Of a stretch of 64,000 nt of DNA, positions 1,676 to 46,188 are shown one piece after another. The notes below the pieces were generated by a model. That model saw nothing but the letters and a program-made list of their open reading frames with translations, searched no databases and was not told the origin of the DNA. Within the stretch, counting starts at the first letter, position 1. Each line of letters begins with the position of its first letter. Source of the DNA: Salana multivorans (GTDB taxonomy: Bacteria > Actinomycetota > Actinomycetes > Actinomycetales > Beutenbergiaceae); NCBI RefSeq assembly GCF_003751805.1, contig NZ_RKHQ01000002.1:806001-870000 (forward strand), written 5' to 3'. A program made the position numbers and the translations under genes.

Positions 1676-6597
<4,922 letters not shown>

Positions 6598-6740
6598 AAA
6601 CATTCAACAAAAGAGAGCAAGAAAACAAGCTCCAAACCCATCCACCCAGAAACGAGGAACCAGGCAGACAAGCAAAACAACAAACAACCACACCCACGAC
6701 AAAACATGAGCATGATCAAATGGCATCATTCGTCACAAAC

Positions 6741-20091: not shown

Positions 20092-21075
20092 ATGCGCGCG
20101 ATCCAGGCAACCACGGCAGGCGGTCCCGACGTCCTCGAGCTGGTCGAGCTGCCGGACCCGGTCCCGGGGCCCGGCGAGGTGCTCGTCCGGGTGGCGGCGG
20201 CCGGGGTCAACTTCATCGACACCTACCGCCGCGGCGGGGTCTACCCGATGCCGTTCCCGCACGTCGTCGGCTCCGAGGGGGCCGGTGTCGTCGAGCGGAT
20301 CGGTGACGACGCGAGCGACGTCGAGGTCGGCGACCACGTCGCGTGGTCCGACGCGCCCGGCTCCTACGCCGAGCTGGTCGTCGTGCCCGCGGCCAGGACG
20401 CTGCCCGTGCCCGCCGACGTGCCGCTCGACGTCGCGGCGGCGCTGCCGCTCCAGGGGATGACGGCGCACTACCTCGCGTGCTCGACCTACCCGGTGCAGC
20501 CGGGTGACGTCGCGCTCGTGCACGCCGGCGCCGGCGGTGTCGGCCTGCTGCTGACCCAGCTCGTCGTCGCACGCGGCGGACGCGTCGTCTCGACCGTCTC
20601 GACGCCCGAGAAGGCCGAGCTGTCCCGGGCGGCGGGGGCCGAGCACGTCATCCGGTACGACGAGCTGGACGACCTCGCGACACAGCTCCCGGCGCTCGTG
20701 CGGGAGGCGACCGGCGGCGACGGCGTGAGCGTCGTCTACGACGGGGTAGGCCGGTCGACGTTCGACGCGTCGCTCGCCTCGCTGCGCCGCCGCGGGATGC
20801 TCGTGCTGTTCGGCGGCGCGAGCGGCCAGGTTCCGCCGTTCGACCTGCAGCGGCTGAACTCGGGCGGCTCGCTCTACGTCACCCGCCCGACGCTGGCCGA
20901 CTACGTCGCCACGCGCGAGGAGCTCGTCGACCGGGCAGACGACCTGTTCCGCCGGGTCGAGGACGGGACGCTGGACGTCCGGATCGGGGCGCGCTTCCCG
21001 CTCGCCGAGGCCGCGGCGGCCCACCGGGCGCTGGAGGGGCGGGAGACGACGGGCAAGGTGCTGCTCGAGGTCTGA
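20092..21075 (+). CDS. NADPH:quinone oxidoreductase (zeta-crystallin-like MDR)
   Basis: A zinc-free medium-chain dehydrogenase/reductase of 327 aa. The N-terminal GroES-like domain has [20 protein letters not shown]. The Rossmann loop is [11 protein letters not shown], and the C-terminal substrate strand is [11 protein letters not shown]. These match quinone reductase Qor-type enzymes reducing quinones or enones with NADPH. It is divergent from argC. TAGGTT ends 6 nt before the ATG, so the transcript may be leaderless. It marks the left conserved border of the accessory island. Confidence 0.92.
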
Positions 21076-21199
21076 GGCCGACGATCACCGTCGGCATTCG
21101 CGTGGCTCGACGATGGCCGAGTCCGTTGTGCGCGTGATCGAAAGATCGACGATGCCTAGACTCCATACGACTCTCCCCACCGATGGAGCCAGATTCGCC

Positions 21200-24061
21200 G
21201 TGACCGACACCGCCGTCCCCGCTTCGCGTCCTACGTTCGCCCCCGGGAGCACGGTCGTCGTGCGCGACGAGGACTGGCTCGTCCAGAACGTCGAGCAGGT
21301 GTCCGAGCACGAGGTACACCTTGCCGTGCGCGGTATCAGCGGCATCACCCGCGACACCGAGGCGATCTTCTCCACGGCGATCGACCACATCGAACCGGTT
21401 GATCCGCGCAGGACCGCCGTCCGCCCCGACCCCTCTCCCGGCTTCCGAACCAGCCGGCTCTGGCTCGAGTCGATGATCCGCCGGACGCCGGTACCAGTGG
21501 CCCATCCGCACCTGACGGCATCGACAGGTGCGCTCGCCACCGTCCTGCCGTTCCAGCGCTCGGCCGTGCATCAGGCGCTCGACCCGGAGAACCTGCGTCC
21601 ACGGATTCTGCTCGCCGACGCCGTCGGGCTCGGCAAGACGGTCGAGATCGGCATGATCCTCTCGGAGCTCGTCCGCCGGGGACGCGGGGAGCGCATCCTC
21701 GTGGTCACTCCCAAGCATGTGCTGGAGCAGACGCAGTTCGAGCTGTGGACACGGTTCGCCCTTCCCTTCGTCCGACTCGACTCGGTGGGGATCCAGCGCA
21801 TCCGGCAGCAGCTCCCGGCGGGGCGCAATCCCTTCACGTTCTACAAGCGCGTCATCATCTCGATCGACACCCTGAAGTCCGATCAGTACATCCCGCACCT
21901 GCGCCACCAGTCCTGGGACGCCGTGGTGATCGACGAGTCCCACAACGTGACCAACTCGAGCACCAAGAACAACCGCCTCGCTGAGCTGCTCTCCCAGCGG
22001 ACGGACGCCCTCATCCTCGCCAGCGCCACCCCGCACAACGGCAGGGCCGAGTCGTTCGCCGAGCTGGTGCGGATGCTGGAACCCAGTGCCGTGCTCCCCG
22101 ACGGCACCCTGAACGAGGAGCTGGTGAAGCGTCTCGTGATCCGGCGTCACCGCCACTCCCCTGAGGTCGCCAGCGCCGTCGGCGCCGACTGGGCCGAGCG
22201 CCTCCCCCCTGACAACCGCGAGGTTCCGGCCTCCCCGATCGAGAACGAGATCGCCGCGGAGCTCGAGAGCACGTGGCTCTGGCCGGAGGGCGAGCCGCCG
22301 ACCGCGAACCGTCTGTTCCCCTGGACACTCGCCAAGGCGTTCCTTTCCTCGCCGAGGGCACTGGAGGCCACCATCGCCGAGCGGCTCGGGCGACTGCCGC
22401 AGACACCGGCATCGGTACCGGAGCGCACGGCTCTGGAGCACCTGGGCATCCTCAATCGTCGCGCACTCGCCGAACCCAGCGCCAAGTACGGTGCGCTCCT
22501 CGACCGTCTGCGTGAGATCGGGGTGTCCCCGTCGTCGGAGGCGCGCGCGGTGGTGTTCGCCGAGCGCGTGCCAACGCTGCTGTGGCTGCAGGAAAAGCTA
22601 CGGCGGGATCTGACACTTCCCGCCGAAGCGGTGGCTGTGCTGCACGGAGGACTGTCCGACGTGGAGCAGCAGGAGATCGTCGAGTCCTTCAAGCTCGCGG
22701 CCTCACCGATCCGAGTGCTCGTCACCGGCGATGTCGCGTCCGAGGGCGTCAACCTCCACGCCCAGTGTCACCACCTCATCCACTTCGACATCCCGTGGTC
22801 ACTGATCAGGATCGAGCAGCGCAACGGCCGAATCGACCGGTACGGCCAACGTCGTCAACCGCAGATCACCACGCTGCTTCTGAAGCCCACCAGCGAACGG
22901 TTCGCCGGCGACTTCCGGGTGCTAACCCGGTTGGTCGAGCGGGAGCACGAGGCACACCGGGCGCTCGGGGACTCCGCCTCGCTCATGGGCACTTACTCAG
23001 TGCGCGCCGAGGAGGATGCTGTGCTCGACGTCGTTCGAGGAGCGCGGCAGTTCGACGCCGTGGTTCGCACGGTCGAGCAGGTCACCAGCGATGCGTCCCC
23101 GAACGGTCTGCTCGCCAGACTTCTCGCGCTGGGGACGCAGTCCGAACAGTCGACCGCCCCGACCACGAACGACACCGGGGCCGGAGCGACGTCCGGGCTC
23201 TACGCCCACGACCTCGACTTCCTGAGAGACGCGTTGATGCACGCGTACCACGGCACACCGAGCAACTCCTCGGCGGCCGGTGGCGTTGCCTGGACCGAGC
23301 ACACGCGCCACTCACTTGCCAGTCTGGAACCTCCGCGCGACCTGAAGCAGCGCCTGCGCGTGCTTCCGGAGAGCTACCTGAGATCACGGCGAGTCACCGA
23401 ACGGCTCATGCTCGCCACGACGAGCGACAAGGGCTCCAGCGAGATCGCGGCCGCCAGGGAGGCACGGGGCGACACCGCCTCTACCTCATGGCCGGAGGCG
23501 CACTACCTCGCGCCCCTCCACCCCGTCCTGGAGTGGGCGGCGGACCGAGCACTGGCGGCGCTGAGCAGAGGCCAGGTGTTCGCCGTCACCGGCGCCGTCG
23601 AGGAGATCACGGTACTCCTGCAGGGCACGCTCACCAACAAACGAGGCCAGGTGGTGGCCGGGAGCTATCTGACCGTTGGTTTCTCAGGTGGGCCGGGGTT
23701 CGGCGCTGTCACCGCACATACCTCGGCCCAGGCTGCCATCGCCTCGCTCGGCGTCTCCGCCGTCAACCGCGGAACTCTCGTCGGAGACGAACTGGATCGC
23801 TACATCTCGACCGCCGTCGATGCGGCTGCGGCGGCAGTCGATGTCCAGGTCAACGCCATCCGCGCCCAGACGAGTGAGCGTGTCAACCGGTGGCAGCAGC
23901 GCGTGCACGACTGGGAGAAGCAGGCCGAGGGTCGCACGCTCTTCACAGCTCTGCGGGAACGACGCGGCGTGATCGAGCAGGAACGTCGCCTTGCCGACTC
24001 GATGCTGCCGGACCGCACCCTGATCCGACCTCTGCTGGTCGTCGTCCCCGAGGAGTCCTGA
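21200..24061 (+). CDS. SNF2-like (RapA/HepA-type) helicase, DrmD-like defense protein
   Basis: A superfamily 2 ATPase of about 953 aa. Walker A is ADAVGLGKTVEIG (about residues 138-150). Motif II is DESH (~244), motif III LASATPHNG, and the C-terminal lobe has VASEGVNLHAQC (~512) and QRNGRIDRYGQ (~540). A C-terminal ~350-residue extension carries no motif I know. This layout matches the DrmD helicase of class 1 DISARM, which also precedes a methyltransferase. GTG 21200 (MTDTAVPASR) is my start; ATG 21152 is the alternative. The stop is 1 nt before the methyltransferase start, so the two are surely co-translated. Confidence 0.85.
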   Translation: MTDTAVPASRPTFAPGSTVVVRDEDWLVQNVEQVSEHEVHLAVRGISGITRDTEAIFSTAIDHIEPVDPRRTAVRPDPSPGFRTSRLWLESMIRRTPVPVAHPHLTASTGALATVLPFQRSAVHQALDPENLRPRILLADAVGLGKTVEIGMILSELVRRGRGERILVVTPKHVLEQTQFELWTRFALPFVRLDSVGIQRIRQQLPAGRNPFTFYKRVIISIDTLKSDQYIPHLRHQSWDAVVIDESHNVTNSSTKNNRLAELLSQRTDALILASATPHNGRAESFAELVRMLEPSAVLPDGTLNEELVKRLVIRRHRHSPEVASAVGADWAERLPPDNREVPASPIENEIAAELESTWLWPEGEPPTANRLFPWTLAKAFLSSPRALEATIAERLGRLPQTPASVPERTALEHLGILNRRALAEPSAKYGALLDRLREIGVSPSSEARAVVFAERVPTLLWLQEKLRRDLTLPAEAVAVLHGGLSDVEQQEIVESFKLAASPIRVLVTGDVASEGVNLHAQCHHLIHFDIPWSLIRIEQRNGRIDRYGQRRQPQITTLLLKPTSERFAGDFRVLTRLVEREHEAHRALGDSASLMGTYSVRAEEDAVLDVVRGARQFDAVVRTVEQVTSDASPNGLLARLLALGTQSEQSTAPTTNDTGAGATSGLYAHDLDFLRDALMHAYHGTPSNSSAAGGVAWTEHTRHSLASLEPPRDLKQRLRVLPESYLRSRRVTERLMLATTSDKGSSEIAAAREARGDTASTSWPEAHYLAPLHPVLEWAADRALAALSRGQVFAVTGAVEEITVLLQGTLTNKRGQVVAGSYLTVGFSGGPGFGAVTAHTSAQAAIASLGVSAVNRGTLVGDELDRYISTAVDAAAAAVDVQVNAIRAQTSERVNRWQQRVHDWEKQAEGRTLFTALRERRGVIEQERRLADSMLPDRTLIRPLLVVVPEES

Positions 24062-24062
24062 C

Positions 24063-27000
24063 GTGACCACCGACGCCATCACGAACGGGGAGAGCTTTCT
24101 CTCCGAGCACTTCCTCGCCGCCTCGGGCAGCCAGTCGTTCCAGGGCAGGGTCACAGACCGCCGCAAGGTCTGGGATGCCTCTAGCAAGGACGGCGAAGAG
24201 ACTCCGCGCACCCGGTTCGCCGCGAGCCGACAGACTCTGATCTCCCAGCTCGCGGAGGTCTCCGGCGCCATCACCGAGCGGGAGGGTCGCGGCGGCGATG
24301 GTGACCGCGCTGATCTCGTCGCGAAGATCCGCCCCCACCACCTGAGCTGGCGTGCCGTGCTCGGCTTTGAACGAATCGGACTTGTTCACCGCACCGAGGG
24401 TCCCGTCCACTGGATCAGCGCCGCCGGTCTCTCGGGTGCTACCCCGCTGGCCATCGTCGAGGCACTTCCAGGCGATCTGGAGTCGCTCTTGGCAAAGGAC
24501 TCGGTCAACTTGATCGAACCGTTCGAGGTCGACGAGAAGCTGCACCTGGTGTCGGTCTCGCGCCTGCTCTCACACCTGTTCACGCTTGCGGAGGCGCCGT
24601 CGTTCGCGCTGGTGCAGGCAGGCCCGCTGGCGCTCCTGGCCGAGCAGTCCCGGTGGCACGAGGGTCGGTACCTCGCCGTCGACCTCCAGCTCGTCGCCGA
24701 CCGCAACGACGGCAAACGGGGCGGTGAGATCGACCAGGCCCTCACGACGCTCGCGGCCGAGTCACTGGCGCCCGATGCCGAGGGCTCGATCTGGTGGGCC
24801 GACCTCCTGGAGGAGTCCGTCAAGAACACCGTCGGAGTCTCGAAGGACCTCCGCGAGGGCGTTCGACTCTCCATCGAGATCATCGCCAACGAAGTCGTGC
24901 GTCGACGCACGGATCAGGGCCTTCCCTCACTGCCGCCGGATCAGGCGCAGCGGCTGGCGAAGGAGTCGCTCCGGTTCCTGTACCGGATCCTCTTCCTGCT
25001 GTATGCCGAATCCTCACCGCACCTTCAGGTGCTCCCGACAGGGGTTACGGCCTACGACCGTGGCTACGGGCTCGACCGACTGCGCGAGCTCACCCTCGTG
25101 GAGATCGAGGACGAGCGCGACCGGCGAGGCTCGCACCTGTATGACTCGCTCGCGGTGCTCTTCCGGATGGTCGACGAAGGCCACGACGGGACAGTCGATG
25201 CCCAGGACGACCTGGTCCGGGAGCAGCCGCTCTCGTTCGCCCCACTCAAAGCGGACCTGTTCAAGCCGGACGCCGTAGAGCTGATCACCGAGGTGGGCCT
25301 TGGCAACGAGGCCATGCAGCGGGTGTTGCGCCACCTCCTGCTGACCAAGCAGGGCAAACGCAAGCGCGACGAACGCGGCTTCATCTCCTACGCCGACCTT
25401 GGCATCAACCAGCTCGGAGCGGTCTACGAGGGCCTCATGTCCTACTCCGGCTTCTTTGCCGACGAGGACCTGTTCGAGGTGGCCAAGGACGGCAACTCCG
25501 AGAAGGGTTCCTGGGTCGTTCCGGTCGACAGGTCGGACGAGATCGCGGACAAGGACTTCGTCACTGCCGAAGACCCGTTCACCGGGGAACGACGACGGGT
25601 GCTTCACTCCCGCGGGACCTTCGTCTACCGTCTCGCCGGGCGGGAACGGCAGCAGTCGGCGAGCTACTACACCCCCGAGGTGCTGACCCGCTTCACGGTG
25701 AGCCAGGCGCTGGAGGAGCTCCTCGACCAGAACGGAACGAAGACCAGCGCGCGGGAGATCCTCGACCTGACGGTCTGTGAGCCGGCGCTCGGCAGCGGCG
25801 CGTTCGCCATCGAAGCGGTGCGCCAGCTGGCGGGCGAGTACCTGCAGCGACGCCAGGACGAGCTCGGGACTCGGATCGACCCCGATGCCTACCCGGCCGA
25901 GCTGCAGAAGGTGAAGGCGTACCTGGCGTTGCACAACGTCTACGGCGTGGACCTCAACGCAACGGCGGTGGAGCTCGCTGAGATCTCGCTGTGGCTCGAC
26001 ACGATGGGCCAGGGACTTCAGGCGCCGTGGTTCGGGCTGCACCTACGCCGCGGGAACTCCCTCATCGGCGCGCGCCGGGCGGTGTTCCGGCGCGACCAGG
26101 TGGCGGCGAAGACGTGGTTCACGGACATGCCCCAGGATCTTCCTCTGACGTCGAGCGACGGTATCGGTGACGGGGTTCATCACTTCCTGCTGCCCGCGGA
26201 GGGCTGGGGCAGCGCGATCAACGCGAAGGAGGCGAAGAACCTTGCGCCCGAGGCGCTGGCACGACTCAAGGCGTGGCGCAGATCAGTCCTGGTGAAGCCC
26301 ACGCGTCAGCAGGTCGACCAGCTCGGGAAGCTCGCCCAGCGCGTTGAGGTGCTGTGGCGGCATGCGCTACAGCGCCTCACCATCGCGGAGGAACAGATCC
26401 GGCGTTCGATCGACGTGTGGGGAGCAGAGGACCTGCCAGTCGGTGGGGCCGTCACGCGCCAGGAGATCGAGGAGTCCCTCGTCGACGCGCGAGGGGCGTA
26501 CCAGCGACTCAAGACCGTGATGGATGCGTGGAATGCACTGTGGTTCTGGCCGCTGACCGACGAGCTCATCTCGCGAGTCGTGGTGTCCGACGACGGCTCG
26601 CAGCGGGTGGAGCGAGTTCTCCCACCGTCCCTGGACCAGTGGATCGACGGGCTGCGTGGACTGCTCGGGTGGAGGTCCGAGGAGTCCAGCACCGGGCGGG
26701 GTCGCCGCTGGCAGGGGGGCGATCAGACCCTTGCCGCGGGCGCGGAGTGGGCTGAGCTCGCGGTGGCCGAGACGACCGACCTCGCGTTCGCCGGCGCCGA
26801 GACCGACCTCCCGGCGCTGTACGGCAGACACCGGTGGCTCGAGGTCTGTGCGGCGATCGCCGCGCAACAGGGCTTCTTCCACTGGGACCTCATGTTCGCC
26901 CCCGTGTTCGCCCAGCGGGGCGGGTTCGACCTCCAGGTGGGAAACCCGCCGTGGGTGCGGCCGCGGTCAGACGTCGACGCGCTGCTCGCCGAGGGCGACC

Positions 27001-28886
27001 CGTGGTTCCAGCTCGCAGTGAAGCCGACGCAGGCCGAGGTGAAGCGCCATCGGGACGCAGCACTCGCCCTGCCCGGGATCGAGACGCTCGTCATCGACGG
27101 CACGGCGGACGTTGCCGTCACCGCCGCGTACCTCGGTAGCAAGCAGCAGTACCCCCACCTCGTGGGTCTTCAGCCCGACCTCTACCGCTGCTTCATGGAG
27201 CAGACCTGGAGAGCAGCCAGACCCACGGGTTCAGGGGTGCCAAGCGAGTCGAGGGTTCCGTCCGTTGCGCCCGGCGAAAATGCTGGAGGCACGGTCGGGC
27301 TCATCCATCTGGAGTCGCACTTCACCGATGAAGGAGCTGGCCCACTACGGGCCGCCACCTACCGTCGATTACGACGACATGCACAATTCGTCAACGAGAC
27401 GAAGCTCTTTCCAGAAATTCAGAATCAGAAGCGATATGGAGTCGCGGTCTACGGCAGCGCTAGGACCCCGGGCTTCATTCAGGCCACGAGTCTGTACTCG
27501 CCAGCAACCTTCGCCAGCTCGTTGCGGCATGATGGTGGTGGTCCGGAGCCAGGGATCAAGGACGAGGATGGGAACTGGGATCTGCGGCCCCATGCCGCCC
27601 GGATCGAGCGGGTCGACCTGGAGGTACTGCGGGCGTGGCACGGGCTCCTGGAGGACGATACGACCCCCGTTGAGCAGACGCGGATGGTCTACACGGTCAA
27701 CCGGGCGGCTTCGAGCGTGCTGACCAAGCTAGCGCGCGCCCCACGACTTGGAACCATCGGGTTCAGGTTCTCAAGGGGGTGGGACGAGAGCATTGACCGA
27801 AAAAGGGGGCGTTTTGAGACGTTATGGGGTGTGCCTGAATCGTGGGATCAGGTCATCCTGCAGGGGCCACACCTCTACGTCGGCAACCCCTTCTACAAAG
27901 CTCCAAACAAGAGTATGAAGAACCACCTCGACTGGACGCCGGTCGATCTGGAGGCACTCCCAGCGGACGCGATTCCCACGACATCGTACAAGCCAGCCGG
28001 CGACGAGTACGAATACGACTGCGCCTACACCGACTGGGGCACAGAGGAAAACCCCGACCCAGCCCGAGACCACTACCGAATCGCCTGGCGAAACATGGCG
28101 GCAAACACCGGAGAACGCACGCTCATACCAGCACTAATCCCCCCCGGAGCGACCCATATCCACGGGCTGTCTTCGATCGGTTTCCCCGGCGATCCTCTCA
28201 CCACTCTCGCCGCCTCAGCTATATTAGGCTCGTTGTTGAGTGACTTTATTGTGCGCGCAGCACCAAAGTCAACGATCACTGCGGGTGTTGTTGGGAGGCT
28301 AGCGTATCCAGTCGGAAGCGGCGTCGTTGCCGAACTCGCCTTGCGAGCCGCAGGATTGCAGCTATTGACCAAGGATTACGCGTCTCTTTGGGATGAGGCT
28401 ACTAGCGATAGCCAAGCCTTGTCGGACGAAACCGGGCGTGGCGGCGTGTTGGAGCGACCGACATGTTCCGCGACCGCAAGACTAAGCAACCCGGTTCCGT
28501 TGCGTCGGGCGAGTGATCGTCGGCAGGCTTTGATCGAGATTGATGCGCTAGTTGCGCTTGCGCTTGGAGTGACGGCGGATGAGTGGTGCACGATATATCG
28601 TACTCAGTTTCCTGTACTGTACGGATACGACCGAAACACCTACTACTATGACGCCAACGGCAGACTCGTTCCCACCTCCGTACTACAGGCCTGGCGTAAG
28701 AAGGGCAACGCCATCACCGGCAGTGAAAGAACCCATGTGCACCCGGGTAGCGGCGTTTCCTACACATATGAGCCCCCGTTCATCACTCTCGATCGCGAGG
28801 CCGACTTCCGCGAGTCCTACCACCGCTTTACGCAGGGGGATTTTCGATTAGGTCTGCCTGAGATCATTGATCTACGGCTCGTCTGA
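24063..28886 (+). CDS. Adenine-specific DNA methyltransferase with invertible C-terminal recognition region (PglX/DrmMI-like)
   Basis: A 1607-aa gamma-class N6-adenine methyltransferase. The SAM-binding motif I is EPALGSGAF near residue 573. The catalytic NPPW is near residue 960. SYYTPEVLTRFTV just before motif I is typical of PglX and type IIG-like enzymes. The N-terminal ~500 residues are helical with no identified nuclease. In DISARM and BREX such enzymes mark host DNA as self. Residues ~1054-1589 lie in a segment duplicated in inverted orientation at 29098-30717, so the specificity part is exchangeable. DNA of the variable segments is visibly less GC-rich. GTG start 1 nt after the helicase stop. 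Confidence 0.88.
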   Translation: MTTDAITNGESFLSEHFLAASGSQSFQGRVTDRRKVWDASSKDGEETPRTRFAASRQTLISQLAEVSGAITEREGRGGDGDRADLVAKIRPHHLSWRAVLGFERIGLVHRTEGPVHWISAAGLSGATPLAIVEALPGDLESLLAKDSVNLIEPFEVDEKLHLVSVSRLLSHLFTLAEAPSFALVQAGPLALLAEQSRWHEGRYLAVDLQLVADRNDGKRGGEIDQALTTLAAESLAPDAEGSIWWADLLEESVKNTVGVSKDLREGVRLSIEIIANEVVRRRTDQGLPSLPPDQAQRLAKESLRFLYRILFLLYAESSPHLQVLPTGVTAYDRGYGLDRLRELTLVEIEDERDRRGSHLYDSLAVLFRMVDEGHDGTVDAQDDLVREQPLSFAPLKADLFKPDAVELITEVGLGNEAMQRVLRHLLLTKQGKRKRDERGFISYADLGINQLGAVYEGLMSYSGFFADEDLFEVAKDGNSEKGSWVVPVDRSDEIADKDFVTAEDPFTGERRRVLHSRGTFVYRLAGRERQQSASYYTPEVLTRFTVSQALEELLDQNGTKTSAREILDLTVCEPALGSGAFAIEAVRQLAGEYLQRRQDELGTRIDPDAYPAELQKVKAYLALHNVYGVDLNATAVELAEISLWLDTMGQGLQAPWFGLHLRRGNSLIGARRAVFRRDQVAAKTWFTDMPQDLPLTSSDGIGDGVHHFLLPAEGWGSAINAKEAKNLAPEALARLKAWRRSVLVKPTRQQVDQLGKLAQRVEVLWRHALQRLTIAEEQIRRSIDVWGAEDLPVGGAVTRQEIEESLVDARGAYQRLKTVMDAWNALWFWPLTDELISRVVVSDDGSQRVERVLPPSLDQWIDGLRGLLGWRSEESSTGRGRRWQGGDQTLAAGAEWAELAVAETTDLAFAGAETDLPALYGRHRWLEVCAAIAAQQGFFHWDLMFAPVFAQRGGFDLQVGNPPWVRPRSDVDALLAEGDPWFQLAVKPTQAEVKRHRDAALALPGIETLVIDGTADVAVTAAYLGSKQQYPHLVGLQPDLYRCFMEQTWRAARPTGSGVPSESRVPSVAPGENAGGTVGLIHLESHFTDEGAGPLRAATYRRLRRHAQFVNETKLFPEIQNQKRYGVAVYGSARTPGFIQATSLYSPATFASSLRHDGGGPEPGIKDEDGNWDLRPHAARIERVDLEVLRAWHGLLEDDTTPVEQTRMVYTVNRAASSVLTKLARAPRLGTIGFRFSRGWDESIDRKRGRFETLWGVPESWDQVILQGPHLYVGNPFYKAPNKSMKNHLDWTPVDLEALPADAIPTTSYKPAGDEYEYDCAYTDWGTEENPDPARDHYRIAWRNMAANTGERTLIPALIPPGATHIHGLSSIGFPGDPLTTLAASAILGSLLSDFIVRAAPKSTITAGVVGRLAYPVGSGVVAELALRAAGLQLLTKDYASLWDEATSDSQALSDETGRGGVLERPTCSATARLSNPVPLRRASDRRQALIEIDALVALALGVTADEWCTIYRTQFPVLYGYDRNTYYYDANGRLVPTSVLQAWRKKGNAITGSERTHVHPGSGVSYTYEPPFITLDREADFRESYHRFTQGDFRLGLPEIIDLRLV

Positions 28887-30717
28887 CCCCTGGCATCTCC
28901 TGGGGTGCGGCACTCAAAACCGAACTCGTTGCAGCCGCGCCAGGGCAGAGGGGCCCGGGATGTCCGAGATAGCTTGCCCTCCTCGGCGACCTACGCGGCT
29001 TGAGTAGGGCCATCCCTCCAAAACCTCCATTCGGAACATCTCCTGAACCAGAGAATCCCTCGGCGTGAGATCAATCGACGTCAACAATCAGTTGAGCAAA
29101 GCGGTGGTAGGACTCGCGGAAGTCGGCCTCGCGATCGAGAGTGATGAACGGGGGCTCATATGTGTAGGAAACGCCGCTACCCGGGTGCACATGGGTTCTT
29201 TCACTGCCGGTGATGGCGTTGCCCTTCTTACGCCAGGCCTGTAGTACGGAGGTGGGAACGAGTCTGCCGTTGGCGTCATAGTAGTAGGTGTTTCGGTCGT
29301 ATCCGTACAGTACAGGAAACTGAGTACGATATATCGTGCACCACTCATCCGCCGTCACTCCAAGCGCAAGCGCAACTAGCGCATCAATCTCGATCAAAGC
29401 CTGCCGACGATCACTCGCCCGACGCAACGGAAAAGCCCATGTCCAGGCAGACGTATCGACTTCCAATTCTGGCCTGCCCGCGTAATCAAGCCCCCCGGCC
29501 CACGGCGAAGTGAACGTGCCGCTCAGTTCCTCATGGACGGCGACTCGTGCGCGATCCCATTCCTTTGAGACGAACCCTATCCGGGCGGCTCGGATCAGAA
29601 GCTCACTCCGGAGCTTTGCGTTGGGTGAGTAGGGGAGGCGCTCGAGCGTCGAATAAAGGATGTCGTTCTTTGGGGCAGACCGCACGACAAAGTCTGCGAG
29701 CAGTGTCGACGCGAAGGCAAGGGCCACTGTTGTCATACTTGCTCGATGTGATCCGGCGCTCGCCGAGTAGATGAGATGAGTGTGGGCAGACCCGGGAGGG
29801 ATCAATGTGGCGACTAGTGTGCGTTCGCCAGTATTGGCAGCCATCCGTCGCCAGGCGATTCGGTAGTGGTCTCGGGCTGGGTCGGGGTTTTCCTCTGTGC
29901 CCCAGTCGGTGTAGGCGCAGTCGTATTCGTACTCGTCGCCGGCTGGCTTGTACGATGTCGTGGGAATCGCGTCCGCTGGGAGTGCCTCCAGATCGACCGG
30001 CGTCCAGTCGAGGTGGTTCTTCATACTCTTGTTTGGAGCTTTGTAGAAGGGGTTGCCGACGTAGAGGTGTGGCCCCTGCAGGATGACCTGATCCCACGAT
30101 TCAGGCACACCCCAGTCCACGTCGAAGTACCCACGCGTTCGATCGTTCGTCTCGTGCCATCCCGGTGAGAACCTGAACCCGATGGTTCCAAGTCGTGGGG
30201 CGCGCGCTAGCTTGGTCAGCACGCTCGAAGCCGCCCGGTTGACCGTGTAGACCATCCGCGTCTGCTCAACGGGGGTCGTATCGTCCTCCAGGAGCCCGTG
30301 CCACGCCCGCAGTACCTCCAGGTCGACCCGCTCGATCCGGGCGGCATGGGGCCGCAGATCCCAGTTCCCATCCTCGTCCTTGATCCCTGGCTCCGGACCA
30401 CCACCATCATGCCGCAACGAATTTACCGCGGTCGCAGGCGAGTAGAGCGAGCACGCACCAACGTAATTAGGTTCTGCCCGTTCCGTGCCGTAGACGTTTA
30501 TCCCGTAGCGCTTTTGGTGCTGTATCTCAAAATACTGCAGCTCATTGATGAACTGCCAGTGTCGTCGTAATCGACGGTAGGTGGCGGCCCGTAGTGGGCC
30601 AGCTCCTTCATCGGTGAAGTGCGACTCCAGATGGATGAGCCCGACCGTGCCTCCAGCATTTTCGCCGGGCGCAACGGACGGAACCCTCGACTCGCTTGGC
30701 ACCCCTGAACCCGTGGG
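27222..30717. repeat. Invertible locus: four-block inverted repeat across the methyltransferase 3' end and its silent copy
   Basis: Blocks identical on opposite strands: B1 27222-27379 with 30560-30717 (158 bp); B2 27519-27773 with 30166-30420 (255 bp); B3 27825-28091 with 29848-30114 (267 bp); B4 28495-28829 with 29098-29432 (335 bp). Between them lie variable segments V1 (139 bp in both), V2 (51 bp in both) and V3 (403 versus 415 bp). Distinct tails follow B4. Coordinates of paired bases sum to 57939 through B3 and 57927 in B4, as expected for one 12-bp length difference in V3. Crossover at B1 swaps everything distal; at B4 only the tail. Confidence 0.92.
28887..29070. other. Spacer between the two convergent methyltransferase tails
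   Basis: 184 bp in the centre of the invertible locus. I see no gene, terminator or obvious recombination site in it. Confidence 0.5.
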
Positions 30718-30741
30718 CCATCTGATTAGTTCATCCGTCAT
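29071..30741 (-). pseudogene. Silent inverted methyltransferase C-terminal cassette (alternative recognition segments)
   Basis: An uninterrupted minus-strand frame encodes a second version of methyltransferase residues ~1054 to the end. Identical blocks alternate with different segments, for example FINELQYFEIQHQ in place of FVNETKLFPEIQN in V1. It lacks the catalytic domain and any ribosome binding site. ATG 30741 (MTDELIRW) lies only 24 bp outside B1, and an open frame extends to 30822 into the recombinase gene. It is therefore a donor cassette rather than an independent gene. The open frame without decay suggests it is regularly selected in the expressed position. The tail ends AQLIVDVD instead of the active copy's longer tail. 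Confidence 0.88.
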
Positions 30742-30783
30742 ACGAACTGTATTCCGGAGGCGTGAGGCGGCAGGCTGACCTGC

Positions 30784-31656
30784 ATGGACGCGATCACCGC
30801 TGGCACTGCCCCTGCCACACAACTACTCCCCTGGCCCTCCGAGATCGCGGCCTTCTGCACCGCGATGGCGGCGCGCCGTCTATCGCCGGAGACCATCACC
30901 CTCCGTCGGTACCACCTCCAACGCCTCGCCCGCGAGATCGGTACGGAGACTCCGTGGACCCTCACCGCAGACGACCTCCTGCAGTGGACCGGCGAACATG
31001 ACTGGAAGCGCGAGACCGCTCGTGCCGTACGGTCCTCGCTCCGGCGCTTCTGGGACTGGGGTCACACCACCGGCCGCACTCAGACGAATCCCGCTGCCCT
31101 CCTGCCCGCCATCCGACCCGACCAGCCCACGCCACGTCCCGCGACGCCCGGCACGGTCAACCGGGCCCTGAAGAAGGCCACCGCTCGCGTCGAGCTCATG
31201 CTCCGGTTCGCCAACGAGCTCGGCATGCGCCGGGGCGAAGTAGCCCGCATCCACCCGCACGATGACCTGATCCGCACGGCCTCGGGCTGGTCCCTCGTGG
31301 TCCACGGCAAGGGTGATCGGGAGCGAACACTGCCGCTCCCCACGGATCTGGCCAAGGTGCTCAGAGATGCGCCCGACGGCTACCTCTTCCCCGGAGCGGA
31401 GAACGGCCACGTCTCGGCCCACTGGGTCGGCACCCTCGTCTCGCGCGCCCTCGGCGATGGCACGACGATGCATCAGCTCCGGCACCTTTGTGCGACGGAG
31501 ATCCACGACCAGACGCGCGACCTCCGACTCGTCCAAACCCTGCTGGGCCACGCCTCTCTCGCCACGACCCAGCGCTACATCGCCGTCGACGACAAGGCTA
31601 TGCGCCGTGCCGTCGCCGCGCGCTCACGCCGATGGAACCCGACCGAGCACGCCTGA
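30784..31656 (+). CDS. Tyrosine site-specific recombinase (Xer/integrase family)
   Basis: 290 aa. The N-terminal SAM-like core-binding domain covers about 15-100. The catalytic domain has all expected residues: Arg149 (GMRRGE), Lys176 (HGKGDR), His230 and Arg233 (HQLRH), His256 (LLGHASLATTQRY) and nucleophile Tyr265. It should therefore be active. It starts 66 bp outside the outermost inverted repeat and is divergent from the silent cassette, an arrangement like recombinases that invert hsdS or phase-variable promoters. I infer that it inverts the adjacent methyltransferase segment. An integrase role for the whole island is the alternative, but no flanking att repeats were found. Confidence 0.9.
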   Translation: MDAITAGTAPATQLLPWPSEIAAFCTAMAARRLSPETITLRRYHLQRLAREIGTETPWTLTADDLLQWTGEHDWKRETARAVRSSLRRFWDWGHTTGRTQTNPAALLPAIRPDQPTPRPATPGTVNRALKKATARVELMLRFANELGMRRGEVARIHPHDDLIRTASGWSLVVHGKGDRERTLPLPTDLAKVLRDAPDGYLFPGAENGHVSAHWVGTLVSRALGDGTTMHQLRHLCATEIHDQTRDLRLVQTLLGHASLATTQRYIAVDDKAMRRAVAARSRRWNPTEHA

Positions 31657-31660
31657 ACAA

Positions 31661-31672
31661 CTGTGTACACAG
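31661..31672. promoter_or_regulatory. 12-bp perfect palindrome downstream of the recombinase gene
   Basis: CTGTGTACACAG lies 5 nt after the recombinase stop, in the 334-bp gap before the DUF1998 helicase start used here. It could be an operator for the downstream two-gene unit or a protein-binding site of the recombinase. I found nothing else convincing in this gap: an open frame on the minus strand has no recognisable product. Confidence 0.35.
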
Positions 31673-31990
31673 ATCGACTTGATCGTCCTCCGCCAAGCAG
31701 ATCCGAGAGCTGCCAACGGCCGAACGCATCCGCGTACAAGCGGCGTGCGCGCCTCTTGCCGAGGATCCGCGCCCCTCGGGTGCCTGCAAGCTCGTCGGGA
31801 CGCACGCAGCATGGCGGATTCAAGTCGACAGCTATCCGATCAGCTAGGAGGTGACGGATGGCTAGCTGCTCATCCTTGTTCTTCGCGCGACCCACCGCCA
31901 AGAGGCATACCAAGACTGAGTCGCTGACTGTCGGAGGTCGTGAGTAGGGTCAGAAACGTCAGCATCGAACGGCCAGCGGGGGCATCCATC

Positions 31991-34900
31991 GTGACCGAAC
32001 TTCTCCCGCTCGAACAGGCTGCCGCGCTACAGCGCAACCTGCTCGAGTACCTCGGCACCACCTTTGCCCTCAGCGACCCCACCACCCGCCAGGCGCTGAC
32101 CGCGTTCCTGGACGACGCCGACTCCGGGCTCTTCCGTGGCCCCTACGTTCGCGCTCGCCTCCCGTTCCGGGTGGCCGAGCAGGACTGGCGCGACCACCTC
32201 GACGTCTACAACGGACCGGCCCCGTACGGGCACCAAGCGCGTGCCTTCGAACGTCTGAGCACCAAGCATCGTTCGCGTCCGCTCCCCACCGTGCTCACCA
32301 CGGGCACCGGGTCGGGGAAGACCGAGGCATTCCTCGCCCCGATCCTCGATCACGTGGTGCGCGCCAAGCGGGCCGGAATCGCGGGGACGAAGGCGCTGAT
32401 CCTCTACCCGATGAACGCTCTCGCCAACGATCAGGCGCAACGCATCGCGACGGCCATCACCTCGACCCGGGAGCTCGCGGGAGTCACCGGAGCCCTCTAC
32501 ACGGGTGACGCCGGCGCTGCCACGACCTCGCGCACCCGCGTCGGCCCTGATGGTCTGATCACCGATCGCGACCTGATCCGGGACACCGCACCGGACATCC
32601 TGCTCACCAACTACAAGATGCTCGACCAGCTGCTGCTGCGAGCGGCCGATGCCCCGATCTGGCGGCAGTCGGCGCTCTCGCTGCGCTACCTCGTGATCGA
32701 CGAGTTCCACACCTACGACGGAGCTCAGGGCACCGACGTCGCTCTGCTCCTGCGGCGCCTGGCACTGACGCTGGCCAGCCATTGGCCGGCCGAGCACCCC
32801 GACCTCACCCCGCAGGTCCGCGAGCGCCCGCTGGGTCTGCTCACGCCCGTCGCCACCTCCGCGACCCTGGGCGATCAGGACGACCCCAGCACCATGCGTA
32901 CGTTCGCCGCAACGGTCACCGGCGTGGAGTTCGAGCCCGAGGCAGTCATCACGGAGTCACGCCAAGCGCTCGAAGAGTGGATCGACGACGCACGGGACCG
33001 GGTGGCCGCCCGTGGTCTGACGCCGTTGCCGGTCGATCCCACCCTCATCCACGACGTCGATGCCACGCTGCGAGCGCACGAGCGAGAGCACGAGGGTTCG
33101 GCAGTTCAGATAGCCGGTAATGCCGACGACGCGACCCGGGCCCTTCTGAGTCATCTCTACCGACAGGTGCCCGACGGTCAGACTGCTCATGCCGTGGCCC
33201 GCGACTGGGCGGCACCCGATCTCACAACCGCCTCCCTGGAGGAACTGGTCGACCTCGTCAAGGCTCACCCGTTCCTGAACACACTGGTCGAGGAAGCCAC
33301 CGGCGCCGTGGAGCTCTCCGCGCTCACTCGCACACTCCTGCCAACCCTTCGGCTGCGCGGTGGTCGCACAGCCGACCCGGCGATCTTCCTCACGGTCTGT
33401 CTCTCCGTTCTCAGCCATCTCCGCGCGGCGGTGGGCCGCGCCATGCCCTCGATCGAGGCACATCTGTGGGTGCGCGAGCTGACCCGGATCGACCGCTATG
33501 CCGCCCCCACCCCCTCCTTCCGCTGGCACGACGACGGCGGACTCACGGGATCGGCGCCGGACGCCGAGCAGCCTCACACCCTGCCGGCCATCTACTGCCG
33601 TCACTGCGGCCGGTCCGGATGGGGCGTCCTCCTGACCCCGACCGGCACCAGCCTCGAGAGTGAGATCGATCCCCGTGGGGCGCACGCCGGGCGCAACGAC
33701 CGGTTCCGACCGTTGATCTTCGCGCCACGCGAGGCGGACGACGCGGAGCGGCAGGACGGTCAGCCGCGCCCCGGTCTGCAGTGGCTCAACGTCTCGGAGC
33801 ACTACCTCATGTCTCGCCCACCGATGCAGGAGGACGTGGTGCGAGACGCCGTCCTGCCCGTCCTCACCCATACCGGCGACGACGCGGCGCGGAGCTCCAC
33901 CGCAGACACCTGCCCCGCGTGCGATGCGCCGGACGGGATCCGATTCCTGGGATCGGCGATCGCCACCATGCTGTCGGTGGGGCTCTCCGGTCTCTTCGGC
34001 GACGCGCAGCTCGACGAGCGCGAAAAGAAGGCCCTGGTCTTCACCGACTCCGTGCAGGACGCCGCCCACCGCGCCGGCTTCGTCCAGTCCCGCTCCCACG
34101 TGCTCACCCTGCGCTCCGTGCTGCGCGAGGCGATCCCGGAGGACGAGGTGATCAACCTCGTGACGCTGCGTGACGAGGTCCTTCGGCTGGCCGGCGATGA
34201 CCCGATCCGTCGATACCGCCTGCTGCATCCCACGCTCGCCGATCGCGAGCAGTTCGCCAAGTTCTGGCGGGAACCCGGCCGCCTGAACTCCAGGGTGCGA
34301 GGCCGGGTCGCGAAACGACTCGACCTCGACATCGCCATGGAGCTGGGGCTACGCAGCACCGTCGGTCGGACCCTGGAGGAGACCTCGACCGTCCTGGTGG
34401 ACGTCGACGCACCGCTCGTGACAGCCCTGGCAGCGGCCCGGGACGCCCTCACCGCCGTCGGCAGCCAACAGCTCGGTGGACTCGACCCCGATGCGACTGA
34501 TCTCACGCACTGGGTCATGGGCGTGCTGTGGCGCATGCGCACTCGCGGGGCGATCGCCCACCCCTGGTTTGAGGAGTTCCGTCGCGAGGACGGCAACCGG
34601 TGGCGAATCTGGGGCGGTCGGGCGCGCGCCGAGGGGATGCCGGGGTTCGGGCCGGGGCAGTCGGCTCCCGGATACCCCTACATCGGCGGGAAGGCCAAGG
34701 GAGAGGATCTCGAACCGGCATCCTCTGCGCGAGGTTGGTACGCCGGGTGGACCGTGAAGACGCTCCAGGTTGATCGAGCTGCGGGGGCGGCCCTTTCCCG
34801 CGCACTGCTGGTCGAGCTGGCCAAGCGTGGCCTCATCGGTCAGCAGGCAGCGAGTAGCGGACTGACCACGTTCCACCTCGACCCGAGCCGGGTCGTCGTG

Positions 34901-37900
34901 GGGAGGGCGCACCTGGAGGACATGCACGCGCACAGGACCCTCCTGGGCTGCCAGACCTGCGGCGGCCACGTCCGTGGTGGTCCCGATCTGGTGGAGCGCC
35001 TGACCGGGGCGCCCTGCGTGGTGGACCGATGCACCGGTCGCCTGGAATCGAGCCGCGCCGAGGACAACTACTACCGCCGGTTGTATGGCGGCAGTAGTAC
35101 CCGTCGCATCGTTGCCCGGGAGCACACCAGCCTGCTGCCGACCGACGTCCGGCTCGACTACGAGACCCGCTTCAAGTCCAGCGACACACGTCCGGACGCC
35201 CCGAACGTGCTCGTCGCGACTCCGACCCTCGAGATGGGCATCGACATCGGTGACCTCTCCACCGTCGTCCTCGCCTCGCTGCCCCGCTCCGTAGCCTCCT
35301 ATCTGCAGCGGGTGGGGCGGGCAGGACGCCTCACGGGAAACGCGCTCACGGTGGCGTTCGTGACAGGGAGGGGGCAGGCCCTCCGCCGACTCGGCATGCC
35401 CCTGGAAACCATCAGTGGTGCCGTCCGGCCGCCGGCCACCTACCTCTCGGCCCTCGAGATCCTGCGCCGCCAGTACCTCGCCAGCGCCGCCGATGTCATG
35501 GCTCGAACCCCCGGTGCTGCGCACCCGAGAACCGCGATCGACGCTCTCGACCTCGCGGCCGATGACGGCTACCTGCGACAGCTGATCGAGCTGGCCGAGC
35601 TCCCCGCGGCCATGGACCGGTTCTGCGCCACACTTCCGCAGCTGGGCGAGTCGCTCGCCGCTCTTCGCGACTGGGCCACCCCGAGGACCGAGAACAGCGT
35701 CGCCATCCCGGGGACAAGCGAGCTTGCCGAGCGCTGCCGTCTCGCCGCGAGCTCGTTCCAGGCCCAGGTTGACGAGCTCACCTTTCGGATCCGCGACCTC
35801 GAGACCGCGCTGCCGGAGCTCCAGCGGATCGCTGAGACCCCGGCCGCCAGCGAGAGCGAGACGGAGGACCTGCGGACGACGTACGCCTCGCTGCGCCTGG
35901 CCAGGCGGCGACGGGCCGACCTGACCGGGAAGCACTGGATCGCCGTGATGGAGCAGGCTGGGCTCTTCCCGAACTACACACTCCTGGACGACGCGGTCGA
36001 GCTCAACGTCGCGCTGTCCTGGCTCGACCCCGAGACCGATGAGTACGAGCACGAGGACCTCACCCTCGAACGGGCCTCCGCGCGGGCGCTCCGAGAGTTT
36101 GCCCCTGGAGCCACCTTCTACGGGCGCGGGTACGGCATCCGGATTGACGCTGTCGACCTCGGCCGCGACGGTGAGGCGATCGAGATCTGGCAGTGCTGCC
36201 CTGACTGCGGCTACGTGGCGGTTCACCAGCGTGGCCGGGCGACCGCGATCGGCCGCTGTCCCCGGTGCCGCAGTGAGGCGATCGCCGACGTCTCCCAGCA
36301 GCTCGAGACGATCGTCCTGACCGAGGTCTCCTCGACGATGCGGCGCGACGACGCAGTGATCGACGACCGCCGCGACGAACGTCGGGCAGAGTCGTTCACG
36401 GTCCGGACCCTCGCCGACATCGACGCCGACGCGTGCACCTCATGGTTCGCCGAGAACACCGGTTTCGGGGTCCGCCATGCGCGGGACCTCACACTCCGCT
36501 GGGTGAACCTCGGACGGGGGGCCTCGCGCGGCGCTGCTTACACCCTCGCGGGTTCTCGGAGCGAGGCACCGCTGTTCCGAGTCTGTGCTCGGTGCGGCCA
36601 GCTCGATGGCGAGAGCGGCGCCAACAGCCGGCGCGAGCACCGCCCGTGGTGCCCACAGCGCAAGGAGACGACCGAGAACACGGTCTCCATCGCGCTCGGT
36701 CGTGTGCTCGTCACCGAAGGGCTGCTGCTCCGGCTGCCCGAACGGCTCACGCTCGGCGAGCGGCTCGCCCTGCCCTCGCTGATGGCTGCCGTCCGTCTTG
36801 CGCTGCGCGAGCACCTGGGTGGGGACCCCGACCACCTGGCAGTCAGCATCGTCGTGGACCCCTCCCCCGACGGCGGCACCGCCGATGCCCTTCTCGTGCA
36901 CGACACGGTGCCTGGCGGGACGGGGTACGTCGAGGCGCTGGCACATGCTCCCCGGCTCTGGGACGTGCTGCACGAGACCTGGGCGTTGCTGCGGGACTGC
37001 CCCTGTGGCACCGAGGAGCGTCCGTGCTGCGAGCGCTGCTTGCTGCCCTACGCCCCGACCAACGCGATCGAGACGGTCTCCCGCGCCGTAGCAGAGCGAT
37101 TGCTCCGTAACCTCCTGATCGGCACCGCCGATGCTGAACCCGAGGCGAGCATGGGGTGGACCATCACGCGCGACGAGCCTCGGCCAGAGGATCCGGAGTC
37201 TCACCTGGAGCAGCTCTTCCGCGAGGTGCTGAGGCAGCGCCTCGAAGCACTTGGGGCCACCATCCGGGAGACGCCCGGTCCCTACGGGACAGCGTGGCAG
37301 ATCAACCTGCCTGCCGGGGGCAGATGGCGGCTGGAGCCCCAACCATTCCTCCACGGCTCGCGGCCGGACTTCGTGCTCACCAGTGCTCGCGGTGATGTAC
37401 CCCCCACAGCAGTCTTCACCGACGGCTACCGCTACCACGCGATACCGGGGCGCAACCGGCTCGCCGACGACGCCGAGAAGCGCGAACGTCTGCGAGCCCA
37501 TGGGTACCGCGTGCTGTCGCTGACGTGGCAGGACCTGCGCACTCCCGGTGACACGCCGGTGAGCGTTCCTTGGTACGCGGACCTGGCCCGCCAGACCGTC
37601 CAGGCCGCCGCCGGGCATCGGCTCGATCCCCACGCCCTCGACCTCGTCACCCGATCCCCGTTCGAGCTCCTCATCGACTGGCTGCACGAGCCCGACGCCA
37701 CGGAGTGGGAGGGCGTGGCGCAGTGGCTGCCCTGGCTCGTCGCGGCGAGGTCGACGCCTGTGCTGGTCGATGAGCAGGCCGATCTGGCCGGGGTTGCGCT
37801 CGCCGTGCTGCGCTCCCAGACGCCCCCGGGAGGCACCTCGGTCACCCTGACCTGGAAGCATGGCCAGCTTGCGCTTGCCTTGCGTCCGCGCGACGAGAGC

Positions 37901-40783: not shown

Positions 40784-40808
40784 ACGCCGCCTCGCCGAGT
40801 GCCGATGT

Positions 40809-41330
40809 TCAGCGGTCGGGCCGGGCCTGTGGGGTCGCGCGCGCGAGGTCGGCGGCGACACCCGTCGCCCAGGCCTCGACGCCCTCCCACTCGGTGTACT
40901 CGCCGTCCTTGGCCCGCACGGCCGCCAGGAGCGACTTCTCGCGCATGGACAGCCCGTCCCGCGTGATCCGGCCGCCGAAGACGACGCGCTCGCCGGCGTT
41001 CTCCACCGTGCGCGCCGCCGTCCAGCGCGGGTCGCCCGGGTCCGGGGTCAGCTCGAGCACCCCGACCGCGAAGGCGTAGACCCGCACGCCGCGGTCGAGC
41101 AGCAGCTCCTGGGCCTGGGTCGCGCGGGAGAGCCAGGTCTTCGTGTAGACCGAGCCGCCGACGACGACCGCGTCGTAGCCCGTGGCGTCGACGACGTCGC
41201 CGACGACGTCCCTCTCGTCGATGGACCGGCGCGTCACGTCGTGGCCCGCGGCACGCAGAACGTCAGCGACCGCGTCCCCGACGCGGGAGGTCCACCCATG
41301 CCGCGACGCCGTCGTCACGAGGATCTTCAT
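40809..41330 (-). CDS. Flavodoxin-domain protein (HemG-like)
   Basis: 173 aa from ATG 41330 (MKILVTTASRHG). The FMN-binding first loop has TTASRHGWTSRVG and the second loop VVGGSVYTKTW, as in flavodoxin-like menaquinone-dependent protoporphyrinogen oxidases (HemG/YkuN-type). The C-terminus has FGGRITRDGLSMREK, a region shared by that group. The reaction is not certain. A longer frame to 41414 is not supported by a ribosome binding site. It converges on the last island gene with a 25-bp gap and marks the right border of the accessory region. Confidence 0.82.
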   Translation of the reverse strand: MKILVTTASRHGWTSRVGDAVADVLRAAGHDVTRRSIDERDVVGDVVDATGYDAVVVGGSVYTKTWLSRATQAQELLLDRGVRVYAFAVGVLELTPDPGDPRWTAARTVENAGERVVFGGRITRDGLSMREKSLLAAVRAKDGEYTEWEGVEAWATGVAADLARATPQARPDR

Positions 41331-41421
41331 GTGGCAACTTTCCCCGGACGACGCCGTGGAAAGGTAGGCCCGAGGTCCCGGGTGCCCCGGACGACGATGT
41401 GCTTGAACCGTCAACCAGCAC

Positions 41422-41450
41422 GAAAACGCCCGGCCGCCGCGGCCGGCCGC
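41422..41450 (-). terminator. Intrinsic terminator after the pheST-SDR operon
   Basis: The minus strand has a stem CCGGCCG-CGG-CGGCCGG (41446-41430) followed by GCGTTTTCG, a GC-rich hairpin with a short U-run. It lies 20-50 nt after the SDR stop codon. Confidence 0.65.
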
Positions 41451-41471
41451 GAGGACGGGGAGCGCCGCGTC

Positions 41472-44949: not shown

Positions 44950-44950
<1 letters not shown>
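42323..44950 (-). CDS. pheT: Phenylalanyl-tRNA synthetase beta subunit
   Basis: 875 aa. The N-terminal tRNA-binding (EMAP/OB) domain contains CGAHNFEVGD and PGAVLPGDF. The B3/4 editing domain holds FVTRVVRGV and VDATNYVMLDLGQPLHAYDL. B5, the catalytic-like domain and the C-terminal anticodon-binding FDX domain (STFPLAKEDLAF...) follow in order. With PheS it forms the alpha2-beta2 enzyme. ATG 44950 overlaps the pheS stop by 1 nt (TGATG). Confidence 0.97.

Positions 44951-46188
<1,238 letters not shown>

Follow-up and report, generated by a model that had tools for sequence, protein, structure and literature searches.

A probable invertible specificity cassette between armB and armC of an ARMADA Type II anti-phage locus in Salana multivorans

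The window analyzed here, a 64,000-nucleotide stretch of the Salana multivorans genome (assembly GCF_003751805.1, contig NZ_RKHQ01000002.1, positions 806,001 to 870,000 of the forward strand), encodes a defence locus assigned, by its gene content and order, to ARMADA Type II. Passages of a 2025 preprint describe ARMADA as a broad anti-phage system whose Type II consists, in strict gene order, of ArmA to ArmD: a BrxHII/RapA-like helicase, a PglX-like methyltransferase, a YprA-like helicase and a GajB-like UvrD helicase (PMC12458937). In the window, a module of 3.05 kb (28887-31939) made up of a spacer, a silent inverted copy of the armB 3' end and a tyrosine recombinase gene lies between armB and armC. 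This module is probably part of an invertible specificity cassette, the inversion of which would rewrite the specificity of ArmB. The features of the locus, in window positions, are as follows.

21113-24061, plus strand: ArmA, SNF2/RapA-like (DrmD/BrxH-like) helicase, 982 aa (amino acids); Pfam SNF2-rel_dom and Helicase_C
24063-28886, plus strand: ArmB, active copy, PglX-like adenine methyltransferase, 1607 aa, NPPW at 961; Pfam Eco57I, PADLOC PDLC03611 at 1354 bits
27222-27379, plus strand: block B1 active, 158 bp; its outer edge carries ACGGGTTCAGGGG
27380-27518, plus strand: island V1 active
27519-27773, plus strand: block B2 active, 255 bp
27774-27824, plus strand: island V2 active
27825-28091, plus strand: block B3 active, 267 bp
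28092-28494, plus strand: island V3 active, the most divergent (33% aa identity to silent V3)
28495-28829, plus strand: block B4 active, 335 bp
28830-28886, plus strand: active tail, 18 codons and stop
28887-29070, no strand: central spacer between the two tails, with GGTTCAG on the minus strand at 29043
29071-30822, minus strand: silent cassette, an open frame of 583 codons with homology to the ArmB C-terminus
29098-29432, minus strand: block B4 silent
29433-29847, minus strand: island V3 silent
29848-30114, minus strand: block B3 silent
30115-30165, minus strand: island V2 silent
30166-30420, minus strand: block B2 silent
30421-30559, minus strand: island V1 silent
30560-30717, minus strand: block B1 silent
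30784-31656, plus strand: tyrosine recombinase, 290 aa, adjoining the silent copy at B1; Pfam Phage_integrase at 1.9e-19
31940-38401, plus strand: ArmC, YprA-like (DruE-like) helicase, 2153 aa; DruE3 at 294 bits
38456-40783, plus strand: ArmD, UvrD/GajB-like helicase, 775 aa, by Pfam and PADLOC

The silent copy is open throughout and matches the 3' part of the 1607-codon armB gene. A first-pass annotation had described four blocks of 158, 255, 267 and 335 bp shared by the active gene and its inverted copy, and both coordinates and lengths proved exact to the base. The blocks are 100% identical and in inverted orientation, identity having been extended outward from inside each match. The islands between them measure 139/139 bp (V1), 51/51 bp (V2) and 403/415 bp (V3) in the active and silent copies, so that all differences in length are multiples of three, and the tails (57 bp active, 27 bp silent) are unlike each other.

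The four blocks show no change at about 248 synonymous sites. The islands V1, V2 and V3 have a synonymous divergence (pS) of 0.84, 0.79 and 0.77 and a nonsynonymous divergence of 0.30, 0.32 and 0.46, the active and silent versions being 59, 47 and 33% identical at the amino acid level. Such zero synonymous change in the blocks, set against saturated islands, is not a chance pattern. Nor is it plain protein conservation. Among 59 orthologs (61 relative loci less two without a usable C-terminal frame), all-pairs mean identity is 43% in B2 and 45% in V1, making the two about equally variable, yet B2 is identical between the two copies in the window. Comparison of the active copy with these orthologs, all of which belong to other genera, gave mean amino acid identities of 45% for V1 (highest 63%), 48% for V2 and 33% for V3; by these alignments the two copies differ in V2 and V3 as much as genera do, and in V1 their identity is in the upper part of the range. 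Recombination between the copies must have homogenised (or spread) the blocks while the islands kept different alleles; without gene conversion or a similar process, 1015 bp would not stay perfectly identical. In the silent frame of 583 codons pN (the nonsynonymous counterpart of pS) is well below pS; an open frame under purifying selection is what occasional expression would lead one to expect.

In order to obtain the predicted products of inversion, the window sequence was inverted by script, with breakpoints at the centres of matching blocks, for each of the 16 combinations. Every one of the 16 states retains an open, full-length armB of 1597-1611 aa, with 16 different V1/V2/V3/tail mosaics; the silent inverted copy and its shared repeats are thus in frame in all states, a feature of invertible specificity loci. 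The idea, already in the first-pass annotation, that inversion at each block swaps everything distal and could give 2^4 = 16 protein variants is borne out as far as 16 open and distinct mosaics go. A crossover in B4, in turn, swaps a tail of 8-18 residues only, so that about 8 mosaics differ in their recognition modules and are likely to matter. The suggestion that inversion might toggle defence finds no support in the reading frames: no state truncates ArmB, and the frame therefore predicts specificity variants and not an on/off switch.

The natural variation of armB was assessed in 13 hand-picked enterobacterial alleles, five on plasmids and eight chromosomal, from E. coli and Klebsiella (L189, L192-L195, L197-L204). 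The plasmid alleles come from seven picked among 20 listed matches, two of which (L191, L196), cut by the record start, were left out; the chromosomal ones were selected among 60 listed E. coli rows, eight being taken so as to differ in length and coverage. Over the 78 pairs, mean identity is 100% at the N-terminus, 96% in the methyltransferase domain, 88% in B1 (lowest pair 52%) and 98% in B4, compared with 51% in V1, 61% in B2, 62% in V2, 80% in B3 and 52% in V3. Identity drops from about window residue 1110 (V1 starts at 1106) to near 1450 (V3 ends at 1478). Alleles L194 and L203 are 98% and 100% identical in V1 and V2 and 47% in V3, while L198 and L202 are 97% identical in V3 and 56% in V1. 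Pairwise identities of the islands are uncorrelated, with Spearman coefficients of 0.06 (V1-V2), 0.10 (V1-V3) and -0.05 (V2-V3). V1 and V3 hence diverge and reassort independently, as separately exchangeable target-recognition modules would, and the armB of E. coli and Klebsiella is, judging from these alleles, a modular and hypervariable gene. A search of 5426 E. coli genomes gave 528 places in 519 of them, and 475 genomes have a single place with coverage of the query allele of 80% or more. In the related BrxX family, passages of PMC11842806 place the recognition domain right after the methyltransferase domain and describe it as the most variable part of the protein. The variation and reassortment of V1 and V3 thus support the earlier description of this region as the recognition part of the methyltransferase, a role in specificity being presumed; the actinobacterial locus appears to hold two such alleles, laid out for exchange inside one genome.

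The four window proteins align in the same order with the genes of E. coli ATCC 8739, with identities of 35% for ArmA (residues 38-858), 33% for ArmB (168-1591), 28% for ArmC (37-2109) and 30% for ArmD (5-772), and with the ArmB NPPW motif at 961 versus 971. According to passages of the preprint, strain ATCC 8739 carries ARMADA Type II beside a Druantia Type III, its Type II system was tested, and defence against phage by Type II in E. coli depends on each of the four genes as well as on the ArmB NPPW motif (PMC12458937). The window shares with this system the four genes in order, each aligning over most of its length, and an armB-type methyltransferase with NPPW, and adds the silent inverted armB 3' cassette and the recombinase between armB and armC. 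The label DISARM-type given in the first-pass annotation denotes close kin and is replaced by ARMADA Type II on gene content and order. DISARM class 1 was ruled out: the best match of ArmC is DruE (294 bits), with DrmA at 58 bits only, and no separate drmB or drmC (PLD) was among the matches listed for eight proteins (for two of them the best 25 of 37 and the best 25 of 44). A BREX locus was likewise ruled out, the best BREX PglX match of ArmB scoring 25 bits, far below the cut-off of 400. PADLOC names ArmB REase_MTase_IIG; Pfam shows no nuclease domain in it, an N-terminal PD-(D/E)XK being expected of Type IIG. Searches of PDB by sequence and by profile gave no relatives of ArmB. For ArmD, in which the RelE-like N-terminal domain of ARMADA Type II was sought, Pfam reports no domain before residue 287 of 775.

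Relatives of the locus were fetched as 61 stretches of 9.5-25 kb (L009, L065-L124), some cut by contig ends. A helicase gene precedes the methyltransferase gene in 58 of them; the order helicase, methyltransferase, DruE-like helicase occurs in 50, with a UvrD gene after these in 41. Direct succession of armB and armC, typical of ARMADA Type II, is not found in the window. In the 52 loci with both genes, the gap between them, taken as the distance between tblastn match ends, is at most 120 bp in 36, 132-471 bp in 4 and more than 1 kb in 12; given the short gap in 36 of 52, the window cassette is an insertion.

The recombinase of this module is XerC/XerA-like, below the equivalog cut-offs, and its best solved chain is 5vfz, the phage protein Gp33. 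The motifs RRGE, KGDRE, HQLRH, GHASL and QRY are present, which we take to fit the catalytic signature of the family. Twenty other loci with related recombinases (39-50% identity) were scanned for inverted repeats of at least 50 bp, with the window as positive control; flanks of 1.5 kb missed the window's own repeat and longer stretches were used. None of the 20 loci has such a repeat in the stretch fetched. One relative (L215, on the 4.4-kb contig C4 of G119) carries two tandem recombinases related to that of the window, which share an 84% direct repeat.

In the searches of the order and of the class 2-3 candidates per genome were scored, and the 61 fetched stretches were therefore used to look for second copies. 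In G090, from another family, a site-specific recombinase gene is present in the locus, as it is in the window. Here contig C5 ends at B1, inside the methyltransferase gene, and contig C13 starts with an inverted B1 fragment, followed by the recombinase and by armC and armD homologs. The recombinase is 63-64% identical to that of the window and occupies the same place beside the duplicated B1. The ends of C5 and C13 share an exact 114-bp stretch of B1 and differ before it, as would be expected of an assembly broken at an inverted pair of B1 copies. Since ArmB is only about 52% and ArmC 40% identical between the two genomes, the association is old or recurrent.

In G285, from a third family, a shorter inverted copy covers the end of B3, V3 and B4, the arms being 81% identical overall and the variable part falling again within V3. 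No recombinase of the window's kind matched in the 18.5-kb stretch. A 581-residue frame of an AAA-type ATPase (L075, 8633-10378, minus strand) lies between the active and silent arms, in the recombinase's place. Within this family the gene is found in 14 of 200 genomes and the second copy in G285 only. Three other loci were discarded as further cases. In G519, armB (plus strand) is split at the B1/V1 border by an insert of about 1 kb (L113, ~5570-6636), which, read on the other strand, is presumably an IS30-type transposase; in L099 and L114, on contigs that end inside armB, armB runs straight into armC and the module is absent there. Among plasmids, 30 records carry a relative of the ArmB C-terminus, in one place each, and no near DNA match to the locus was found; among viral contigs, 22 stretches matched a pattern and none is a relative.

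The blocks were searched for a shared recombination core. The best 15-mer common to all four has 11 mismatches in total, a score reached by none of 40 mononucleotide shuffles on one strand and by a fraction of 0.075 of them on both strands. Orthologs served as a second control (57 of the 59, two having been dropped, among which G285, with its own inverted copy, may be), and 6, 8, 4 and 4 of the 57 score as well as the blocks at 10, 12, 15 and 16 bases. The 15-mer was consequently rejected as evidence of a core. In both recombinase-bearing loci, the window and G090, the copies become identical at AC[GA]GGTTCAG[GT]GG. GGTTCAG sites occur at the outer edge of B1 in both, at the right edge of B2 and in the spacer (29043, minus strand), and none was found in the 23 ortholog linkers scanned, 36 of 59 having been left out for want of an anchor. 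As it was picked after looking, GGTTCAG is a lead only. Were it a real core, the spacer site would permit, with those at B1 and B2, further, truncating inversions. With up to two mismatches ACGGGTTCAGG occurs 20 times in the window, no more often than expected (21); CCGTTGCGNCGGGCGA, with up to three, was found 25 times against 17 expected, and 8 of 100 shuffles had as many.

An invertible cassette that sets the specificity of an ARMADA Type II system is probably the best account of these data. In it, the silent copy would be a store of alternative modules (V1', V2', V3' and tail'), and whenever an active block recombined by inversion with its silent counterpart, everything distal would be brought into the expressed armB frame. 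The outcome would be an intact ArmB with another recognition mosaic and, presumably, another methylation and self-recognition sequence. The neighbouring tyrosine recombinase most likely drives the inversion, probably via a site at the outer edge of B1. Through the long blocks the copies would exchange again and again, whether by means of the recombinase or through homologous recombination and gene conversion, which would hold the blocks identical and reassort V1, V2 and V3. On balance we favor inversion driven by the recombinase, B1 being its most likely site, together with a contribution of homologous exchange in the inner blocks; we infer that inversion occurs, that the recombinase performs it and that specificity changes. 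The anatomy also fits the four-crossover shufflon proposed in the first-pass annotation, although no common motif beats the controls and a recombinase site in each of the four blocks is thus unproven. More tentatively, a one-gene, four-crossover shufflon may reprogram the self mark of the entire multi-helicase system, a dedicated recombinase and four blocks giving up to 16 mosaics (about 8 in recognition) within one cell lineage, so that sister cells would bear mutually incompatible self marks against escaped or modified phage.

Several observations weigh against the proposal of an invertible cassette. One assembly with one arrangement is at hand, in which inversion is not seen. The arrangement is rare: an inverted armB copy occurs in 1 of the 61 loci (G285), and a recombinase match at 1e-6 in 0 of 61, G090 being handled apart. 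The interior of the G090 locus is missing from its assembly, so that only B1 is confirmed there (nine of nine candidates scored, two matches at E 0.01). Motifs common to all four blocks do not exceed the controls, the 15-mer score of 11 being equalled or beaten in 4 of 57 orthologs. Natural variability is not limited to the islands, given that B2 (61%), chiefly within its initial 40 residues, varies as much as V2 (62%). AlphaFold, run with 3 sequences, gave a mean pLDDT of 34 and no structural support for a recognition role. The control with related recombinases is weak, as 8 of the 20 loci lie within 2 kb of a contig end and a partner could be lost. Finally, site-specific recombination by itself would not be expected to leave such long blocks perfectly identical, which indicates gene conversion or homologous exchange in addition.

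In the principal alternative, all exchange is the work of RecA-type homologous recombination or of gene conversion, and the tyrosine recombinase just lies nearby, for example as what is left of a mobile element that introduced the cassette. Gene conversion would directly explain long (158-335 bp), perfectly identical blocks, no core in all four beats controls, and spnIII switching in pneumococcus is reported to be independent of known recombinases (PMC6620402). Even so, it seems rather unlikely that the recombinase has no part. A 63-64% identical enzyme sits beside a duplicated B1 in a second family in which ArmC is only 40% identical, inverted repeats of at least 50 bp are absent from the 20 related recombinase loci (with the contig-end limit given above), and the arms of G285, with no recombinase match in 18.5 kb, are just 81% identical. 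The locus might also be a dead duplicate, the product of a one-off inverted duplication with chance conversion tracts that no longer rearranges, as could be argued from the single known arrangement, the confinement of the inverted copy to G285 among 61 loci and the decayed look of the G285 copy. That seems improbable for a silent frame of 583 codons that has remained intact and whose pN is far below its pS, blocks without change at ~248 synonymous sites, intact recombinase motifs and a matching architecture in G090.

An on/off phase switch of defence, instead of a specificity switch, could be envisaged from the position of the cassette inside the operon, between armB and armC, where flips could alter antisense or read-through transcription, and from the spacer GGTTCAG, which could permit a truncating inversion if it is a core. 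It is very improbable: all 16 block-to-block states yield a full-length ArmB, and the natural variation and reassortment of V1 and V3 are those expected of recognition modules. A collapsed or chimeric inverted repeat, conceivable insofar as a single assembly lies behind the locus, is hardly credible, because a fold-back artefact would not give three divergent, in-frame, homologous islands; both copies also carry family-like alleles, and the contig break in G090 falls exactly at B1.

The invertible cassette favored here has known counterparts. The pneumococcal cod/spnIII hsdS loci with PsrA likewise combine inverted specificity sequences sharing repeats, a tyrosine recombinase and mosaic specificity proteins (PMC7096588, PMC6620402). 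PsrA, according to passages of PMC7096588, has as its substrates a 15-bp repeat and similar sequences that lie within two further repeats, and the pneumococcal system differs in having a separate HsdS subunit of a Type I restriction-modification system and three repeat pairs with an IR1-like sequence in each. The window, by comparison, has a single-chain methyltransferase of a helicase defence system and four blocks, in which no shared core was found. The BREX gene pglX encodes a similar PglX-like methyltransferase, but the window locus is not BREX (25 bits versus 400). According to work attributed to Goldfarb in 2015, pglX is reportedly duplicated or phase-variable in some BREX clusters. The R64 shufflon, in which Rci reassorts a gene 3' end by multiple crossovers at short identical sfx repeats, resembles the window in its multi-crossover 3'-end layout and tyrosine recombinase and differs in its short common repeat, none having been found in the window. 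Phase variation or duplication of BREX pglX is also mentioned in passages of PMC11842806. Inverted silent hsdS cassettes with recombinases are known. The main text of the preprint, supplement aside, has no occurrence of 'phase variation', 'inverted' or 'methylat' (PMC12458937), and a literature search, weak on subscription papers, found no report of inversion in ARMADA.

Passages of the preprint are silent on how the methyltransferase picks its target (PMC12458937); the window locus and the enterobacterial alleles point to V1(-V2) and V3 as interchangeable recognition modules, and the locus offers a natural experiment with 16 ready-made combinations. If inversion does take place, a multi-helicase defence would share the specificity switching known in Type I restriction-modification and suspected in BREX, and the ARMADA self mark could change within a clone. 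A phage modified by one self mark could then meet sister cells with another.

In the surroundings of the locus, the defence island is flanked by an alcohol dehydrogenase gene (20092-21075) and by pheT/pheS-like genes (42323-46119), spanning 20092-46119. No tRNA genes were found in the window. A 579-codon frame (40743-42482) without a match in Pfam, PADLOC or NCBIfam overlaps the end of armD. Further upstream, a single frame of at least 150 codons occurs between window positions 1354 and 6725, and the GC content of positions 2001-6000 falls to 57%, compared with 59-77% in other 2-kb steps.

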